DNA of 42,602 bases from Methanofollis sp. Lineage in GTDB: Archaea; Halobacteriota; Methanomicrobia; Methanomicrobiales; Methanofollaceae. Below are positions 18,731 to 28,093 of this stretch, in pieces. The notes beneath the pieces were generated by a model, which saw only the letters and a program-made list of their open reading frames with translations, had not been told where the DNA came from and made no database searches. How positions within the stretch are numbered: the stretch's first letter is position 1; each line of letters opens with the position of its first letter. The position numbers and the translations under genes are program-made. The stretch covers positions 1 to 42,602 of the forward strand of contig JASGMW010000004.1 of assembly GCA_030156225.1 (NCBI GenBank), given 5' to 3'.

Positions 18731-20242
18731 ATGGAGACAGTATTGTCGATAACGCCATCGCATGAGGAATATTCTGCGCTGGCGGAGCGCCGGGACGGTC
18801 CCCTGATCGTCCCCTTCTGCCGTGAAATTCCCACCCCCCTTGCGTCGCCTCCGCGTCTCTACGCGGGGCTCTGTAAGGGGCAGGGGTTTCTTCTGGAATC
18901 GATGGAAGGGAGCGAGCGGACCGCACGCTACTCGGTGATCGGGATCGATCCCGTGCTCTCTCTTTCGTTCGGTGAAGAGGATACCATCTGCGGGGACGAG
19001 CGTTATGTCTCGGTCGTCCGTTCACCGGAAGGAGCGACTCCTCTGGAGAAGATGCGCTCGATTCTGAAGAGATTCTCACCGCTTCCGATCCCCGTGCCCA
19101 GGTACGCCTGCAGCTTCGTTGGCTACTTTGCCTACGACCTTGTCCACGATCTCTATCCGCAGGTCGAACGCAGCCGCGCCGGGGATCCCCGCCCTCCTGC
19201 GGTCAGGAGCATGCTCGCACGCGACTGCGTCGTCTTCGATCATCAGGCAGGGAAGGTGTCCATTGTCTCGGCTGCCCTTCTGACGGACGGTTCCGATCCG
19301 GCCGACGTGTACAGGGAGAGCATGGCGAGAATAGAACAAATTGCAGCAAAACTCGCCGCACCCGACGACCCCCCCTCTCTGCCGATCGTCCCCGAACCCG
19401 GGGTGGGCACCGTCTTTTCGTCCTCGATGACCCCGGACGAGTACGGGGCTGCGGTCCTGCGGGTGAAAGAGGAGATCGCCGCCGGCGAGATCTTCCAGGG
19501 CGTCGTCTCGCGGCGGATCGAGTGCGCGTACCCGGGCGACCCGTTTGCAATCTACACCGCCCTCAGGGCGATGAACCCCGGGCCGTACATGTACTATCTC
19601 GACTTCGGGGACGTGCGGATCGCCGGCGCAAGCCCTGAAATGCTCGTCCGGGTCGAGAAGGGAACTGTCACCACGGTGCCGATCGCGGGCACGCGGCCGA
19701 GAGGGGGGACGCCCGAAGAAGACGAACGTCTGGGGCGCGAACTCCTCGCCGACGAGAAGGAGCGGGCCGAACACACGATGCTCGTGGACCTTGCGAGAAA
19801 CGATCTCGGCCGGGTCTGCCGGTACGGCTCGGTCCGGCTTGCCGGGTTCATGGACGTTGAGAAGTATTCCCATGTCCAGCATCTCGTCTCGGTCGTCGAA
19901 GGAGCGCTGGACGATCGTTGCGACTGTTTCGATGCCTTTTCCTCCTGTTTCCCGGCAGGAACGGTATCGGGCGCCCCGAAGATCAGGGCGATGCAGATCA
20001 TCGAGGCCGTAGAACCGACGTCCCGCGGCATCTACGCCGGTGCGGTCGGGTCCGTGGGCTTTGACCGGAGCCTGGAGTGCGCCATCGCGATCAGGACGGT
20101 GGTCGTGGAGGGCGGTGTCGCCTCGGTCCAGGCCGGCGCCGGGATCGTCGCCGACTCGGTTCCTGAAAACGAATGGGAAGAGACGGAAAACAAGGCCCTG
20201 GCCATGCTCAGGGCGATAGAGATCGGGAGGCGATCTCCATGA
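18731..20242 (+). CDS. trpE: Anthranilate synthase component I
   Basis: This 503-aa chorismate-binding enzyme makes anthranilate from chorismate and ammonia. Motifs include LLES in the tryptophan feedback pocket (GFLLESMEGSERTARYSVIG), AGASPEMLVRV, PIAGTRPRGGTPEEDERL, DLARNDLGRV, and the chorismate/Mg motif FPAGTVSGAPKIRAMQII. The LLES element suggests feedback inhibition by tryptophan. The ATG follows a GGTGA-type site, and the stop overlaps the trpG ATG by ATGA. Confidence 0.97.
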   Translation: METVLSITPSHEEYSALAERRDGPLIVPFCREIPTPLASPPRLYAGLCKGQGFLLESMEGSERTARYSVIGIDPVLSLSFGEEDTICGDERYVSVVRSPEGATPLEKMRSILKRFSPLPIPVPRYACSFVGYFAYDLVHDLYPQVERSRAGDPRPPAVRSMLARDCVVFDHQAGKVSIVSAALLTDGSDPADVYRESMARIEQIAAKLAAPDDPPSLPIVPEPGVGTVFSSSMTPDEYGAAVLRVKEEIAAGEIFQGVVSRRIECAYPGDPFAIYTALRAMNPGPYMYYLDFGDVRIAGASPEMLVRVEKGTVTTVPIAGTRPRGGTPEEDERLGRELLADEKERAEHTMLVDLARNDLGRVCRYGSVRLAGFMDVEKYSHVQHLVSVVEGALDDRCDCFDAFSSCFPAGTVSGAPKIRAMQIIEAVEPTSRGIYAGAVGSVGFDRSLECAIAIRTVVVEGGVASVQAGAGIVADSVPENEWEETENKALAMLRAIEIGRRSP

Positions 20243-20817
20243 ACGTCATGATCATCGACTGTTACGACAGTTTCACGTTCAACCTCTTCCAGCAGGTGGG
20301 CATGCTCGGCGGAGACCCGGTCGTCGTGAAAAACGACGCGTCGGCATCGGTGCTCCGCGAGATCGAATGCGACCGGATCATCCTCTCGCCCGGCCCGGGC
20401 ACTCCCGAGGAGTCGGGCCTCTGCCTCGAGGCGCTCGGGACGGTATGCAGGGAGATCCCGACGCTCGGGGTCTGCCTGGGCCACCAGGCGATCTGCACCG
20501 CCTTCGGGGGCCGGGTCGTGCGGGCCGGTCGCCTGATGCACGGCAAGACCTCGCGGATCCAGCACGACGGCCGCGGCATCTTCCTGGGCGTCGAGAACCC
20601 TCTCACCGCGACGCGGTATCACTCCCTGGTCGCGGACCCGGCGAGTCTGCCCGACTCGCTCGAAGTCACGGCGACGAGCCTCGACGACGGTTACGTGATG
20701 GGCCTGCGTCATCTGGACTATCCTGTAGAAGGGATCCAGTTCCACCCCGAAAGCATCCTCTCCCCGGAGGGGAACCGGATCATCGCGAATTTCCTCTCTG
20801 GCAGGGGGTGCGCCTGA
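20239..20817 (+). CDS. trpG: Anthranilate synthase component II (glutamine amidotransferase)
   Basis: This 192-aa class I amidotransferase supplies ammonia to TrpE. The nucleophile Cys is in LGVCLGHQAICTAFGG (about residue 77), the catalytic His and Glu are in GIQFHPESIL, and MHGKTSRIQHDGRGIF is the trpG/pabA signature. The start MNVMIIDCYDSFTFNL at 20239 overlaps the trpE stop, and the stop overlaps the trpD start (TGATG). It could also serve para-aminobenzoate synthesis, but the context favours tryptophan. Confidence 0.95.
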   Translation: MNVMIIDCYDSFTFNLFQQVGMLGGDPVVVKNDASASVLREIECDRIILSPGPGTPEESGLCLEALGTVCREIPTLGVCLGHQAICTAFGGRVVRAGRLMHGKTSRIQHDGRGIFLGVENPLTATRYHSLVADPASLPDSLEVTATSLDDGYVMGLRHLDYPVEGIQFHPESILSPEGNRIIANFLSGRGCA

Positions 20818-21833
20818 TGATTGCCGACGCCGTCATGAAGCTGGTGGAGCGCCGCGACCTCACGGCCGGCGAGGCCGGGGCGGTCATGCGCGAGATCCTC
20901 AGCGGCAGCGCGACCCAGGCGCAGATCGGGAGTTTTCTTACGGCGATGCGGATGAAAGGGGAGACAGTGCCCGAGATCGCAGGCTGCGTGCAGGCGATGC
21001 GCGAGGCCTCGGTCTCCATCGCTCCCGGGGCCGCCTCCCCTCTCGTCGACACCTGCGGCACCGGCGGCGACCTGACCGGCACCTTCAACATCAGCACCAT
21101 CGCCGCGTTCGTCGCGGCCGGTGCCGGGGTGCCGGTCGTCAAACACGGCAACAGGGGCGTTTCGAGCGGGTGCGGTTCGGCCGACGTGCTTGCGGCGCTC
21201 GGCGTCGGCATCGACCTCCCGCCGGCGCGGGCGCAGGCGGTCCTGGAGGAGATCGGGATCGTGTTCCTGTACGCTCCCACCTATCACCCGGCCCTCCGCC
21301 TGGCCGCCGGGCCGCGGCGAGAGATCGGGATCAGGACGATCTTCAACCTGCTCGGCCCGCTCGCAAACCCTGCCGGGGCGCAGGCGCAGCTCGTCGGGGT
21401 GTACGCCCCCGAACTCGTGACGACGGTGGCGGGCGTCCTGCGCGATGTGGGCGTGGCGCGGGCGATGGCCGTCCACGGCAGCGGACTCGACGAGATCAGC
21501 ACCACGGGACCGACGAACGTCGCCGAACTGAAGGACGGGACGATCCTGACCTACGAGATCAGGTGCGAGGACTTTGGGTTTCGCCAGGCCGCCCTGCACG
21601 ATCTGAAGGGGGGGAACGTCGCCGAAAATGCGGCGATCGCCAGGAGCGTCCTGGGCGGGGCGGCGGGCGCCGCCCGCGAGATCGTCCTCCTCAACGCCGC
21701 GGCGGCGATATACCTGGGGGGAAAGAGCCTGACGGTTGCGGACGGCGTCCGCGTTGCGGAGCGTTCGATCGACTCGGGGCGTGCGCTCGAAAAACTTGAA
21801 TCGCTGGTAACGGCGACCGGAGGCGCCGTATGA
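20817..21833 (+). CDS. trpD: Anthranilate phosphoribosyltransferase
   Basis: This 338-aa enzyme joins anthranilate and PRPP. It shows DTCGTGGDLTGTFNISTIAAF (PRPP loop), VVKHGNRGVSSGCGSADVLAALG, FLYAPTYHPAL, and RTIFNLLGPLANPA. In the family the KHGNRAVSSKSGSAD motif normally has Ala and Lys-Ser where this one has Gly and Gly-Cys, a small variation next to the anthranilate site. ATG 20817 overlaps the trpG stop, and the frame's upstream extension is a trpG shadow. Confidence 0.95.
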   Translation: MIADAVMKLVERRDLTAGEAGAVMREILSGSATQAQIGSFLTAMRMKGETVPEIAGCVQAMREASVSIAPGAASPLVDTCGTGGDLTGTFNISTIAAFVAAGAGVPVVKHGNRGVSSGCGSADVLAALGVGIDLPPARAQAVLEEIGIVFLYAPTYHPALRLAAGPRREIGIRTIFNLLGPLANPAGAQAQLVGVYAPELVTTVAGVLRDVGVARAMAVHGSGLDEISTTGPTNVAELKDGTILTYEIRCEDFGFRQAALHDLKGGNVAENAAIARSVLGGAAGAAREIVLLNAAAAIYLGGKSLTVADGVRVAERSIDSGRALEKLESLVTATGGAV

Positions 21834-22594
21834 TCCTGGACGAGATCGTCGCCCGCACCCGCTACCGCGTCGCCGCGCTGGGAACGGCAGAGGAAATGGA
21901 CCCCGGCTCTCCGAACAGGGTTCGCAGGAGCCTTTCAGAGGCGATCAGATCGGCAGGCGAGCGGAACGCGATCATCGCCGAGGTGAAGTACGCTTCCCCC
22001 TCGCGGGGTGCGATCCGGCGTTCCGAACCCCCGGAAATACTTGCCGGGAAACTGATCGACGGGGGCTGCATCGCCCTCTCGGTCCTGACCGAGCCCTTCT
22101 TTTTCGGCGGGAGCACCGAGAACGTCCGGAGAATCAGGCCGGTCTCAGACGTCCCGATCCTCAGGAAGGATTTCATCGTCGACGAGCGGCAGCTCTACGA
22201 GACGGCCGCCCTGGGCGCCGACGCCGTCCTCCTGATCGCCGGCGTGCTCGGGCCGGATCTCGGAACATTCGTCGACCTCTCCCGCGACCTCGGACTCGAA
22301 CCGCTCGTCGAGGTCCACACGCGCGCCGATGTAGAGACGGCGCTCGCCACAGAGGCCGGATTGATCGGGATCAACAACCGCGACCTCGCCACGATGACGA
22401 TCAATCTGAACACCACCATGCACCTCTCGGCCCTGTTTGCAGGGGAGGACCGGCTCGTGGTCTCGGAGAGCGGGGTCATCTGGCCCTGCGATATCAGGAT
22501 GCTGAAACGGTACTGCGATGCCTTCCTGATCGGCTCCTCGGTCATGGGATCGGGCGACCCGGCACGGAGGCTCGGGAGGCTGGTATGCGCCTGA
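21830..22594 (+). CDS. trpC: Indole-3-glycerol phosphate synthase
   Basis: This 254-aa TIM barrel carries the catalytic residues of the family: E and K in IIAEVKYASPSRGAIR, K in VPILRKDFIVDERQLYE, E in LEPLVEVHTRAD, N in IGINNRDL, and the ES pair in VVSESGV. It closes the indole ring from CdRP with loss of CO2. The N-terminal helix is short but present. It overlaps trpD by four bases and trpF by ten. Confidence 0.95.
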   Translation: MILDEIVARTRYRVAALGTAEEMDPGSPNRVRRSLSEAIRSAGERNAIIAEVKYASPSRGAIRRSEPPEILAGKLIDGGCIALSVLTEPFFFGGSTENVRRIRPVSDVPILRKDFIVDERQLYETAALGADAVLLIAGVLGPDLGTFVDLSRDLGLEPLVEVHTRADVETALATEAGLIGINNRDLATMTINLNTTMHLSALFAGEDRLVVSESGVIWPCDIRMLKRYCDAFLIGSSVMGSGDPARRLGRLVCA

Positions 22595-23157
22595 AGATCT
22601 GCGGGATCACGCGTGTCGCAGACGCCCTCGCTGCGGAGGCGGCCGGGGCGGATGCGGTGGGGGTCGTCATGTTCTCGGATTCCCCCAGATCGGTCGCCCC
22701 GGCTGAGGCGGCCGCGATCTTCTCTGCTCTCGGCCCCTTCATCGGCCGGGTCTGCGTCTCGACCACCGACGATCCGGCCGACCTCGCCGGCATGCTCGCC
22801 CTCGGGCCGACCGCCGTGCAGCTCTATCACGACCTCGACGTGCCCGCGGGGGTGCGGACGATCAGGGGGATCGGTGACGGCCGCGTCCCGGCGGGCAGGT
22901 TCGACGCCCTTCTCCTCGACGCGAGCATGGGCGCTGGAACGCAGTACGATCTCCGGGAAGCGCAGGCGCTGGTGCGGACCTCGCCGGTCCCGGTCATTCT
23001 TTCCGGCGGGCTGAACCCGGAAAACATCGGAACAGCGCTTGCGGCGGTCGAACCGTACGCCGCAGACGTCTCATCCGGTGTCGAGGACAGCCCCGGCATA
23101 AAAAACGTTGATAAAATGAAGGCATGTATCATGACGTGCAGGGGGCTCACCAGATGA
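22585..23157 (+). CDS. trpF: Phosphoribosylanthranilate isomerase
   Basis: This 190-aa TIM barrel has the general-base Cys in [12 protein letters not shown], the general-acid Asp in [10 protein letters not shown], and the phosphate loop [12 protein letters not shown]. It converts PRA to Cd[13 protein letters not shown] stands where most TrpF have AVQLHG. It is slightly shorter than typical (about 200-210). It lies inside the trp gene chain with overlapping ends, which confirms the role. Confidence 0.93.
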
Positions 23158-24326
23158 GCCCGGGATATTTCGGTGCATTCGGCGGGCAGTTCGTGCCCGA
23201 GACATTGATGGCGCCTCTCCGGGAGCTGGCGTCGGCGTACGAGACGGCGAAGACGGATCCGGTCTTTCAAAAGGAGTTGCAGGGGTACCTCTCGGAGTTT
23301 GCCGGCAGGCCGACCCCGCTCACCTTCTGCCGGAACCTCTCCGCCGATCTGGGGTGCCGGCTCTACCTGAAGCGCGAGGATCTCCTCCACGGCGGGGCGC
23401 ACAAGACCAACAATGCCCTGGGGCAGGCCCTCCTTGCGAAGTATATGGGAAAGACGCGGCTCATCGCCGAGACCGGCGCCGGGCAGCACGGCGTCGCCAC
23501 GGCGATCGCCGGGGCGGTCCTCGGCATCCCGGTCGAGGTCTACATGGGGGAGGTCGACATGGCGCGGCAGCGCCTGAACGTCTTCAGGATGGAACTGCTG
23601 GGGGCGCGGGTGATCCCGGTGAAGACCGGGCAGAAGACCCTGAAGGACGCCGTCAACGAGGCCCTCAGGGACTGGGTGGCCAACGCCGGGGAGACCCACT
23701 ACTGCCTGGGTTCGGTGGTCGGCCCGCACCCGTATCCGACGATCGTCAGGGACTTCCAGCGCGTCATCGGGGAGGAGACGAGGGCGCAGATCCTGCACGC
23801 CGAAGGACGTCTGCCCGACGCCGTTATTGCGTGCGTCGGCGGCGGATCGAACGCCATCGGGATCTTCCACCCGTTTTTGAACGACGATGTCAGGCTGATC
23901 GGGGTCGAGGCCGGCGGGCGGGGCCTTGAGACGGGCGAGCATGGGGCCACCCTCTGCGCCGGCACGAAGGGGGTGCTGCACGGGGCGCTCTCCTATCTCC
24001 TGCAGGACGCCGACGGCCAGATCCTGGAGACCCATTCGGTCTCGGCCGGCCTCGACTACCCGGGCGTCGGCCCGGAGCACGGGATGCTGAAAGACGCGGG
24101 CCGGGTCGAGTATACGGCCGTCACCGACGACGAGGCCCTGGAGGCGTTCTCCCTCCTCTCGCGGCGCGAGGGGATCGTGCCGGCGCTGGAGTCCTCGCAC
24201 GCGGTGGCGCAGGCGGTGAAGGCGGCGGAGGAGATGGACCCGGACGACGTGCTCGTCGTCAACCTCTCGGGCCGGGGGGACAAGGACGTCGAACAGGTGG
24301 CGGCGCTCGGGAGGTTCGGGCCATGA
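23154..24326 (+). CDS. trpB: Tryptophan synthase beta chain (TrpB1)
   Basis: This 390-aa standard beta subunit has PLP lysine motif [21 protein letters not shown], the catalytic-Glu segment [14 protein letters not shown], the GVEAGG loop and [15 protein letters not shown]. It ends with the [10 protein letters not shown] serine motif. It joins indole channelled from TrpA to serine. ATG 23154 overlaps the trpF stop, and its stop overlaps trpA, the usual trpBA coupling. Confidence 0.97.
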
Positions 24327-25213
24327 GCCGGATCGCAGCGGCCTTCACCGGTGCGAAGCGGCCGCTCCTCGTCGTCTATCTCGTCGGCGGCGATCCCGAT
24401 CCGGACGCCTCTCTTGCGGCGGCGACGGCGATCGTGGAGGGCGGGGCCGATATTCTGGAGATCGGCATCCCCTTCACCGACCCGATCGCCGACGGCCCGG
24501 TGATCCAGGAGGCGAACGTGCGGGCGCTTGCGGCAGGGATGACGACCGACCGGATCTTTGCGCTGGTGCGGGCGGTCAGGGGGCGCTCCGCCGTTCCGAT
24601 CGTGCTGATGACCTCGTACAACCCGGTCTATGTCCGCGGCGACAGGCGGTTCTGCCGCGATGCCCGGGACGCCGGAGCGGACGCCGTCCTGATCACCGAT
24701 CTGCCCCCGGAAGAGTCCGGCCCCTTCGATGCCGCCGCCAGGGAGTACGGGCTCGACCGGATCTTCCTGGTCGCCCCCAACACTCCTGAGACGCGTCTCC
24801 CCCTGATCGCCGATCTGGCGAGCGGATTTCTGTACCTCATCTCGGTGCAGGGTGTCACCGGCGTGCGGGAGAACCTCGACCCCGCCGTCTCCCGGCGGGT
24901 CGCCGCGCTCCGTTCGGCCACCTCCCTCCCGGTCGCCGTCGGCTTCGGCATCTCCAGGCCGGACCACGTGCGGGAGATCGCCGGTGCCAGGGCGGACGCC
25001 GCAGTCGTGGGGAGTGCCGTCGTCAGGATCGTCGGGGAGCACGGCGGCGACGTCGCGGCGATGCAGGCAGCGTTGCGAACGTACGTGGCCGGCATGCGTG
25101 CGGCGGCCGTGCTCCCGGGGTCGCCGCAGAAGAGCCGGGGGGGTTCGCCCCTCGATCCCCTCAGGAGAGGGGGGACGGCAACCCCTCTCTTCCCCGGGCC
25201 AACCCACAAATGA
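24323..25213 (+). CDS. trpA: Tryptophan synthase alpha chain with C-terminal extension
   Basis: This 296-aa TIM barrel has the catalytic Glu and Asp in [18 protein letters not shown], then [39 protein letters not shown] and VVGSAVVRI. Other TrpA proteins end near residue 260-270; here about 30 residues follow ([17 protein letters not shown] and on), low in complexity and not family-like. The DNA of this tail holds GC-rich hairpins, so the original stop may have been lost into the terminator region. It is the last gene of the operon. Confidence 0.95.
25157..25191 (+). terminator. Hairpin pair at the end of the trp operon
   Basis: GAGAGGGG (25165-25172) pairs with CCCCTCTC (25182-25189) across a 9-base loop. 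An upstream CCCCTC (25157-25162) can instead pair with GAGGGG (25167-25172), so the two stems exclude each other. Both lie within the last codons of trpA. There is no T-run directly after, so this is a hairpin-type candidate, not a classical archaeal T-tract terminator. Confidence 0.45.
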
Positions 25214-25586: not shown

Positions 25587-25610
25587 ATCTCCGGATATTC
25601 CATGACCTCA

Positions 25611-25620
25611 TTAATATATT
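25611..25620 (-). promoter_or_regulatory. TATA box of the DUF5654 gene
   Basis: AATATATTAA, followed upstream on the minus strand by an A-rich stretch, is centred about 30 bases before ATG 25586. Confidence 0.55.
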
Positions 25621-25639
25621 TTTTTCAGCGACCAAGCCC

Positions 25640-25678: not shown

Positions 25679-26926
25679 ATGCAGATCGCAGGAATAGATG
25701 TCAGAAATTTCAAGAGTTTTCGAGAGGCTTCCGTCGCCCTCGGCCGGTTCAACGTGATCATCGGTCCGAACGCCGCAGGAAAATCGAACTTCGTCGATAT
25801 CTTCGCGTTCCTCTCCGACTGCGCGCGGGAAGGGTTCGCCAACGCCGTCTCCCTCCAGGGGGGCGGGGAGTACGTCAGGAACCTGAGGGCTCCTCCGTCC
25901 GAGACGACGGAGATCGTCGTCTCTCTCGACGCCGACGACGGGCCGGTGCGGGTCCGTTTTTTCAGGGACGGCGGCCGGGTAATAGAGGCGGTCGTCGGTA
26001 CGTGCACCTACTCCCTCTCCCTCCTCTGTGCGGGAGCCGGCTGCATGATCGTCGCGGAGGAGATCACCGCCGGCTGCACCTGTCATCTTGTGGACGGCAG
26101 CGGGTCGGCCTCTTCTCCGGGCGAAGGAGAGATCCATCTCTCCAGAACGGCGGACGGCAGCGTCGACTGCACGGTCGTTCCCGAAGACATGGCTCCGGAA
26201 CCCGACTGCACGCCCCTCGCCGCCTCGCCCCTCGCTGCGGACGAGTCGATGCTTGAAAATCCGGTCATCTATCCGGCCTTCTCGCCCCTCGTCTATCAGG
26301 TCAGGAACTTTTTTCGGGACATCGGCCACTACGACCTCGACCCACGTCTCGCGAAACGTGCGGCAGAGGTCTCGGGCCGCGTCGAACTCGACCGGGACGG
26401 AGGGAACCTCGCGGTGGTGCTCAGGGCGATCCTCGCCGACCCCGAACAGCGGCGGCGGGCATGGGGCCATGTCCGCGAACTCCTCCCCTTCATTCACGAG
26501 ATCGGAGTGGAACAGATCACCGACCGGGCCCTGATCGCCACCCTGAAAGAGGAGTACTCAGGCGCTGCGGTCCCGTCCTTCCTTGTCTCGGACGGCACGA
26601 TCAACCTCACGGCGCTGATCGCCCTGCTGTACTTCGAGGACAAGCCGGTCGTCATCATCGAAGAGCCTGAGCGCAACATCCACCCGCACCTCATCGCAAA
26701 ACTCGTTTCGATGATGCAGGACGTCGCCGCACACCTCGGCCGCCAGATCCTCGTCACCACCCACCACCCCGAGGTCGTGAAATACGGCGGCATGGGAAAC
26801 ATCCTCCTGTTGAAACGGGATCCTGAAGGGTATTCGGTCGTCACCCGTCCTGCTGAGCGCAGGGAACTCGACGTCTTTCTGGAGACGATGGGGATCGACG
26901 AACTCTATGTGCAGGATCTCCTTTGA
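25679..26926 (+). CDS. SMC/RecF-like AAA ATPase (OLD/AAA15-AAA21 type)
   Basis: This 415-aa ATPase starts IAGIDVRNFKSFREASVALG and has Walker A GPNAAGKSNF (about residues 29-38). A long central insertion (about 90-290) follows, then an ABC signature-like SDGTINLTALIALLY, Walker B VVIIEEPERNIHPHL and the H-loop LVTTHHPEVV. This is the layout of the ATPases paired with nuclease-like partners in OLD, Gabija- and PARIS-type defence systems; other members serve DNA repair. The stop overlaps the region of the next gene's ribosome binding site, and the two form one operon. The open frame before 25679 is not family-like. Role in defence is inference. Confidence 0.88.
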   Translation: MQIAGIDVRNFKSFREASVALGRFNVIIGPNAAGKSNFVDIFAFLSDCAREGFANAVSLQGGGEYVRNLRAPPSETTEIVVSLDADDGPVRVRFFRDGGRVIEAVVGTCTYSLSLLCAGAGCMIVAEEITAGCTCHLVDGSGSASSPGEGEIHLSRTADGSVDCTVVPEDMAPEPDCTPLAASPLAADESMLENPVIYPAFSPLVYQVRNFFRDIGHYDLDPRLAKRAAEVSGRVELDRDGGNLAVVLRAILADPEQRRRAWGHVRELLPFIHEIGVEQITDRALIATLKEEYSGAAVPSFLVSDGTINLTALIALLYFEDKPVVIIEEPERNIHPHLIAKLVSMMQDVAAHLGRQILVTTHHPEVVKYGGMGNILLLKRDPEGYSVVTRPAERRELDVFLETMGIDELYVQDLL

Positions 26927-26937
26927 GGCGGAGGCAG

Positions 26938-27480
26938 ATGGACTCCTCCCCCCTGTACGTCCTTATCGAGGGCCAGGACGACGAACGCTTTTTCTCCAGG
27001 ATCGCCCGCCCGCTCTTCGCCGAAAAAGGCTATGAGACGCGGATATGGAAATACGCCTGCGAGAAACGGCAGCGAACGATAAACCTGGTTCTTGCGGTTA
27101 GAAAGGGAGGGCACGCCTGTATATTCGTCAGGGACATCGACCGTACCCCCTATGCACGCACCAGGGTGCAGGAGACCCTGAACCGCTTCGGGCATGCGAT
27201 GGACCCGGCGATGATCGTCATTGTCGTCCCTGAGATCGAGGGCTGGTACCTCGCGGGGCTGTCTGGAGAGGCGGCGGCCCGTCTCGGGATCAGGGAGAAG
27301 ATCGGACGGACCGACCGGATCACCAAGGAGGTGTTCAATACCCTCGTCCCGCGCGGCGTCTCCAGGATCGAGTTCATGCAGGCGATCCTCGACGAGTACG
27401 ACGCCGGGCTGGCGCGGAAGAAAAACCGGTCGTTCCGTTTTTTCATGGACCGGTTCGTCAACGGCGAACGACTGCCGTAG
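26938..27480 (+). CDS. Toprim-like protein (DUF4276/DUF4435-like), partner of the ATPase
   Basis: This 180-aa protein starts SPLYVLIEGQDDERFFSRIARP and has an acidic motif FVRDIDRTPY (about residues 64-73) and VVPEIEGWYLAGL. The EGxDDxxFF and DxD motifs are the metal-binding acids of Toprim-fold families such as DUF4276 and DUF4435. It is therefore a possible nuclease or other nucleic-acid enzyme switched by the neighbouring ATPase. ATG 26938 has GGCGGAGG 4 bases before it; a TTG at 26923 is an alternative. A basic tail (KKNRSFRFFMDR) may bind nucleic acid. The family assignment is by motif only. Confidence 0.72.
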   Translation: MDSSPLYVLIEGQDDERFFSRIARPLFAEKGYETRIWKYACEKRQRTINLVLAVRKGGHACIFVRDIDRTPYARTRVQETLNRFGHAMDPAMIVIVVPEIEGWYLAGLSGEAAARLGIREKIGRTDRITKEVFNTLVPRGVSRIEFMQAILDEYDAGLARKKNRSFRFFMDRFVNGERLP

Positions 27481-27533
27481 ACGGGAAAAAGCCGGCGTTT
27501 CTCCCTCGAACCCTGCACGGCGGCGGGTAAAAC

Positions 27534-27544
27534 AGTATATTTTT
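27534..27544 (+). promoter_or_regulatory. TATA box of the MerR-like gene
   Basis: AGTATATTTTT is centred near 27538. The predicted start is about 27564, where a six-codon reading frame begins that overlaps the gene's ATG. Confidence 0.5.
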
Positions 27545-27580
27545 CCGATCGCCGGGGCATAGGATGATCTGCTGGATGCC

Positions 27581-28093
27581 ATGAATGCAGGAAACGATCA
27601 TCTCAAGCCGTCCGAGATCGCCGATCTCGCCGGTCTCCCGGAAGAAGAGGTCAGGGGCTATATCGCCGCATATCCGGATCTCTTCCCGTACCGGAGCATC
27701 GGCCCGGTCAGGCTGTATGCCCCGAAAGCCGTTGAAAGCGTCGGAAAACTTGCAGAGGCGGCCAGGGCCGGACGAAATCCCGGGGAGACAACCGAAGAGA
27801 TCGACGCAGCCGAAGGAGACGGCGCCGCACCCTCGCCGGTGACGCAGGCCTACCTCGAAGCCCGCGACCTCAAGGACGTCGTCGCCAGACAGGCACAGCA
27901 GATCGAGACGATCCGCAGGGAGACGGACGCGCGCGAACGCACCCTTCTCGAACGGATCGACGCGCTCGAAGAGGCCCTCGCGCGCGAACAGAAACAGACC
28001 TCGCTCGTCGCCGACTGGATCGACTATTTCGACGCCGAACTCGCACTGCTCAGGCGTCCGCTGCTGAAACGGATCTTCGAAAAAAAGAGTTAG
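27581..28093 (+). CDS. MerR-like HTH protein with coiled coil
   Basis: This 170-aa protein has an N-terminal MerR-type helix-turn-helix (residues 8-60: LKPSEIADLAGLPEEEVRGY, then YRSIGPVRLYAPKAVESVGKL). An acidic linker, a long coiled coil (about 88-135, VVARQAQQIETIRRETDARE onward) and a C-terminal helix ending RRPLLKRIFEKKS follow. It probably binds DNA as a dimer. No ligand-binding domain is visible. It lies 100 bases after the Toprim-like gene with its own TATA box, so it may regulate or assist that cassette. Its stop overlaps the stop of the convergent PEGA gene (TTAG). Confidence 0.75.
   Translation: MNAGNDHLKPSEIADLAGLPEEEVRGYIAAYPDLFPYRSIGPVRLYAPKAVESVGKLAEAARAGRNPGETTEEIDAAEGDGAAPSPVTQAYLEARDLKDVVARQAQQIETIRRETDARERTLLERIDALEEALAREQKQTSLVADWIDYFDAELALLRRPLLKRIFEKKS

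Follow-up and report, generated by a model that had tools for sequence, protein, structure and literature searches.

Several known systems join an SMC-type ATPase head to a Toprim nuclease. In the class 1 and class 2 OLD nucleases and in GajA of the Gabija system, which has an extra helicase gene, both domains are fused in one protein. In PARIS (AriA-AriB, class 4 OLD), the ABC ATPase and the Toprim nuclease are split between adjacent genes; the mechanism of AriA and AriB has been described (PMC12409363), and class 4 has been reported in bacteria alone (PMC12796447). The MAD3-MAD4 proteins of MADS and PADLOC's candidate defence system HEC-01 also have to be considered, the latter consisting of two genes that encode an AAA_21 ATPase and a small Toprim/DUF4276-type protein. 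Our literature search found no experimental paper on HEC-01. The archaeal example is Cran1, the class 5 OLD protein of Sulfolobales, which is vertically inherited, has nickase activity and a cell-cycle role, and is not antiviral (PMC12796447).

Here we analyze a stretch of 42,602 nucleotides (the window) from a Methanofollis genome of 1.79 Mb in 100 contigs, which belongs to the order Methanomicrobiales. A preliminary description had proposed a candidate defence cassette of an ATPase, a Toprim-like partner and a MerR-like coiled-coil protein. All three open reading frames are present, approximately at the places it gave, and the features of the locus are as follows.

25610..25626, plus strand: probable archaeal TATA-type promoter element of the pair, ATTAATATATTTTTTTC, as read from the sequence.
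25679..26926, plus strand: ATPase gene, ATG at 25679, stop at 26926, 415 aa; SMC/RecF/OLD-type ABC ATPase (AAA_21; PADLOC HEC-01A-like).
26938..27480, plus strand: Toprim gene, ATG at 26938, stop at 27480, 180 aa; predicted stand-alone Toprim nuclease, DUF4276/AriB-like, with a weak HEC-01B match.
27581..28093: third gene, 170 aa; possible HTH and coiled coil.

The ATPase and Toprim genes of the window are real and intact and form one unit, the Toprim ATG starting 11 bp past the ATPase stop. Beside the pair lies a divergent DUF5654 gene, and the putative promoter element lies within the intergenic space between the two. Upstream are trp genes, known from their translations, and A-type ATP synthase genes. 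The trp cluster (18731-25213) ends just upstream of the pair; other genes are found there in the seven other pair-bearing genomes of the genus, so that the trp/pair junction is peculiar to the genome of the window.

The ATPase carries complete ABC/SMC-type motifs. An alignment of 26 sequences shows conservation of Walker A (GxNAxGKxN), of the SDGT signature, of the Walker B motif EEP and of the TTH switch; the protein also ends in a conserved C-terminal tail (GIDELYVQDLL). The motifs quoted in the preliminary description recur in relatives, and the SMC/RecF-type identity that it proposed is borne out by the match to the Pfam family AAA_21 (9.1e-30) and by the predicted structure (pLDDT 86.9), which matches the heads of PtuA, SMC, RecN, Rad50, GajA and OLD. 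Among the PADLOC profiles, HEC-01A ranks first (2e-44), with AriA lower (5e-30), and HEC-01A matches 26 of 26 ATPases. A second, diverged ATPase of another subfamily (24% identity) lies near the pair in one genome (G085, L106:1314-2474).

Recognition of the small protein depended on its fold. A sequence search against the PDB returned noise alone, and the window Toprim has diverged too far to give a confident Pfam match (DUF4276, 0.0071, under the cut-off). Structure prediction (pLDDT 90.8) confirmed an OLD-type Toprim nuclease domain, the five best PDB matches all being OLD Toprim domains (entries 6nk8, 6njv, 6njw and 6p74), although the first match alone fell below E 0.001 and TM-scores were about 0.4-0.5. 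Eight residues (E11, D14, D15, D66, D68, E99, E101 and K130) are invariant in 25 Toprim sequences, so that the conserved Glu, the DxD and the second metal-site acids are all present, including the acids on which the Toprim-like assignment had first been made. By order and spacing rather than by computed superposition, we read E11, D15, D66, D68, E99 and E101 as the probable counterparts of E400, E404, D455, D457, T506 and E508 in the Burkholderia pseudomallei OLD protein, the residues used for comparison being E400/E404, D455/D457 and T506/E508 (PMC6755086). The relatives of the window Toprim give better profile matches (DUF4435, 4.1e-6; DUF4276, 7.7e-5; OLD-like TOPRIM, 2.9e-4), in keeping, together with the AriB matches and the fold, with the earlier view of a stand-alone DUF4276/DUF4435-type partner. 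HEC-01B matches 23 of the 25 Toprims at E<=0.01 (best 6.6e-8) and the AriB profile matches 15 of them; the window protein itself scores weakly with both (0.0019 and 0.0082, respectively).

The two genes are tightly linked. Adjacency of the two genes, a point raised by the preliminary description, was found throughout: in all 56 loci of the order examined that have both genes, the window included, the ATPase is immediately upstream of the Toprim, usually with a spacing of -4 to +11 bp and, in a few loci of family f6, a gap of 56 to 232 bp. The ATPase frame is broken in G112. The same gene order recurs in distant archaeal genomes, in an Acholeplasmataceae bin and on a viral contig. We consider it well supported, from the predicted folds and the conserved motifs, that the pair would belong to the biochemical class of split OLD-type ATPase-Toprim machines.

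The pair probably falls under the candidate system HEC-01; the two-gene part of the combination, which the preliminary description had not recognized, is already catalogued there. However, the window Toprim reaches only E 0.0019 with HEC-01B, and the pair is vertically inherited and outside defence islands. PARIS shares the split, adjacent genes, but its profiles match less well than those of HEC-01 (HEC-01A 2e-44 against AriA 5e-30; AriB 0.0082), and this ranking rules out a standard PARIS. MADS is likewise ruled out: the MAD3 profile matches the ATPase at 1.8e-38 and mad4 finds a match in the window at 7e-4, but the MAD3 score of 132.8 bits is under the curated cut-off of 420 and no other MADS genes occur among those scanned nearby. 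The pair shares the Toprim fold and acids and the SMC-type ATPase head with the class 1/2 OLD nucleases and GajA, but it is split where these are fused, and no helicase gene accompanies it. Like Cran1 (PMC12796447), it is an archaeal OLD-type ATPase and Toprim, inherited vertically outside a defence context; however, Cran1 is a single polypeptide that seems to be essential, whereas the pair is encoded by two genes and often lost.

Within Methanomicrobiales the pair is inherited vertically as a resident chromosomal locus. The Toprim gene occurs in 80 of 199 genomes of the order (79 intact, and one decayed copy in G068), always in single copy and never duplicated. Its distribution is close to all-or-none per genus: only 11 genomes are in the minority state of their genus, against a mean of 64.4 by shuffling, whereas HsdR, a typical defence/restriction gene counted from matches at about E<1e-30, gives 48 against 67.7. 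The pair is found in genera g5 (11/11), g6 (8/8), g12 (25/28) and g17 (3/3) and is absent from g4 (0/35), g16 (0/25), g35 (0/8), family f4 (0/40) and most of f2. In the pair tree, all ten genera with at least two members are monophyletic, and pair distances correlate with those of aEF-2 (r=0.78; 0 of 999 permutations). Ten well-supported pair splits conflict with the single-marker aEF-2 tree; several of the ten fall within genera, and others involve a genus that is itself broken up in the aEF-2 tree. A common flanking block (clusters 25, 11, 17 and 47, then 55 or 30) precedes the pair in families f1, f2 and f3, and this implies that its site is older than those families; loss is thus the simplest explanation for the four empty sites found in the window's genus. 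The locus shares with a housekeeping gene, the status that would have spoken against the initial proposal, its chromosomal inheritance at a conserved site within lineages, but not fixation, as it has been lost repeatedly. It is therefore dispensable.

The pair is under purifying selection, with a within-genus dN/dS of 0.17-0.30, against 0.08-0.13 for aEF-2. The fastest-evolving part of the ATPase is its middle region (71-200), with a dN/dS of 0.17-0.45. Positive selection, the sign of an arms race, was looked for in the ATPase by region and no value above 1 was found. Loss appears to be in progress in decayed copies: the one in G068 is broken and truncated, and the one in G184, apparently internally deleted, is probably a pseudogene (L118, L161).

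The surroundings of the pair are not those of a defence island, for which the earlier description had suggested looking. PADLOC gave no defence hit on ten other large open reading frames of the window, and in other genera the neighbours are ordinary (ABC transporter, TspO, MntP, ODP-family flavodiiron protein, ketol-acid reductoisomerase and similar), the mad3/AriA hits among them falling on the transporter ATPase. These observations rule out a defence island. Furthermore, the pair does not behave as a mobile defence system, which would be patchy within genera and variable in site and have defence neighbours. A flavodiiron protein gene of the ODP family and a desulfoferrodoxin-like gene come after the pair both in family f5 (g12) and in f6 (L091:10079-11889; L107:10106-11690), an oxygen-stress type of neighbourhood common to the two families.

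Outside Methanomicrobiales the pair is patchy, bacteria having been thinly sampled, and the window protein had no match in plasmid and phage records at the sensitivity of this search. On one IMG/VR contig (L162:1-10507), a diverged pair directly follows an SSB gene; a radical SAM gene and a Holliday junction resolvase come after it, and the region also encodes a DnaD-like helicase loader. The whole has the appearance of a genuine replication module of a phage. Phages thus do carry members of the wider family, and exclusion of the P2-OLD type is among the plausible ancestral roles.

What might such a machine do? In our best explanation, to which we would give about an even chance, it is a resident split OLD-type machine most likely acting in host nucleic-acid maintenance. 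The ABC ATPase would assemble with a separate two-metal Toprim nuclease and gate it, giving an ATP-dependent nickase or nuclease that would serve the host as Cran1 appears to do; the locus itself would be a resident one, vertically inherited and repeatedly lost in the order, and not a mobile defence-island cassette. Complex formation, gating, substrate and biological role are what we infer here. The invariant Toprim acids, the complete ATPase motifs, the linkage and the vertical inheritance count in favour of this explanation, and the way the pair has evolved speaks against a mobile defence cassette and is reminiscent of Cran1. Against it stand the whole-lineage absences and the pseudogenes, which show that the pair lacks the essential status that Cran1 appears to have, the defensive role of PARIS, the best characterised of the split relatives, the distant phage-borne relative and the patchiness outside the order, the ten conflicting splits, and the fast middle region of the ATPase, as would be expected of a sensor.

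The serious competitor, which we hold at somewhat less than an even chance, is a resident abortive-infection system of the PARIS kind, in which the ATPase would hold the Toprim inactive, sense a viral protein and release the nuclease to cut tRNA or DNA. The AriA/AriB mechanism provides the precedent (PMC12409363), and HEC-01A and HEC-01B being the best PADLOC matches, the AriB matches in 15 of 25 members, the fast middle region of the ATPase, the phage-borne relative and the repeated loss are all consistent with it. However, no defence island surrounds the pair, its inheritance is vertical and its sites fixed, the ATPase shows no sign of diversifying selection, and no copy turned up in the plasmid and phage collections at the sensitivity used. 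The defence role first proposed thus keeps its HEC-01/AriB profile matches but is weakened by the vertical inheritance, the conserved site and the lack of a defence island. Repeated loss from whole lineages argues against essentiality and leaves resident immunity nearly as likely as host maintenance, which in our analysis seems slightly more likely. Far less probable is a toxin-antitoxin-like or decaying selfish remnant of an old phage or element, of no present benefit to the host: the phage-borne relative and the decayed copies of G068 and G184 could be so explained, but the low dN/dS, the catalytic residues invariant across the order and the long-term retention in g5 and g6 speak against it.

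The third gene is an independent, unrelated neighbour. It is adjacent to the pair and in the same orientation in all eight pair-bearing genomes of the genus, but it is present in 12 of 12 genomes, against 8 of 12 for the pair; in the four genomes devoid of the pair it directly adjoins the DUF5654 gene and keeps the upstream region seen in the window (TTTTTCC...GGATGATCTGCT...ATG). In other genera it is never beside the pair. A distant homologue in G102 is near the pair without being adjacent. The MerR assignment was not confirmed, as neither the window protein nor its ortholog gave a MerR hit or any family hit in Pfam, and the mad1 profile matched only weakly (E 0.036); a diverged HTH is possible. 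These counts and the empty sites that keep the third gene rule out the three-gene cassette, with the third HTH/coiled-coil protein regulating or assisting the pair, a reading already largely refuted and to which we attach very little probability.

Our results call for caution, since defence databases label such pairs antiviral by profile match, and this one evolves like a chromosomal gene. It may tentatively be seen, at a likelihood well short of even, as a second, independent archaeal domestication of an OLD-type machine, in which a two-gene ATPase-Toprim nuclease would help to maintain the chromosome or RNA in Methanomicrobiales, as a parallel to Cran1 with its single gene in Sulfolobales. 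The genera in which the pair is fixed, together with the four empty-site genomes of one genus, offer a clean comparison for the roles of OLD-type machines outside archaeal immunity.
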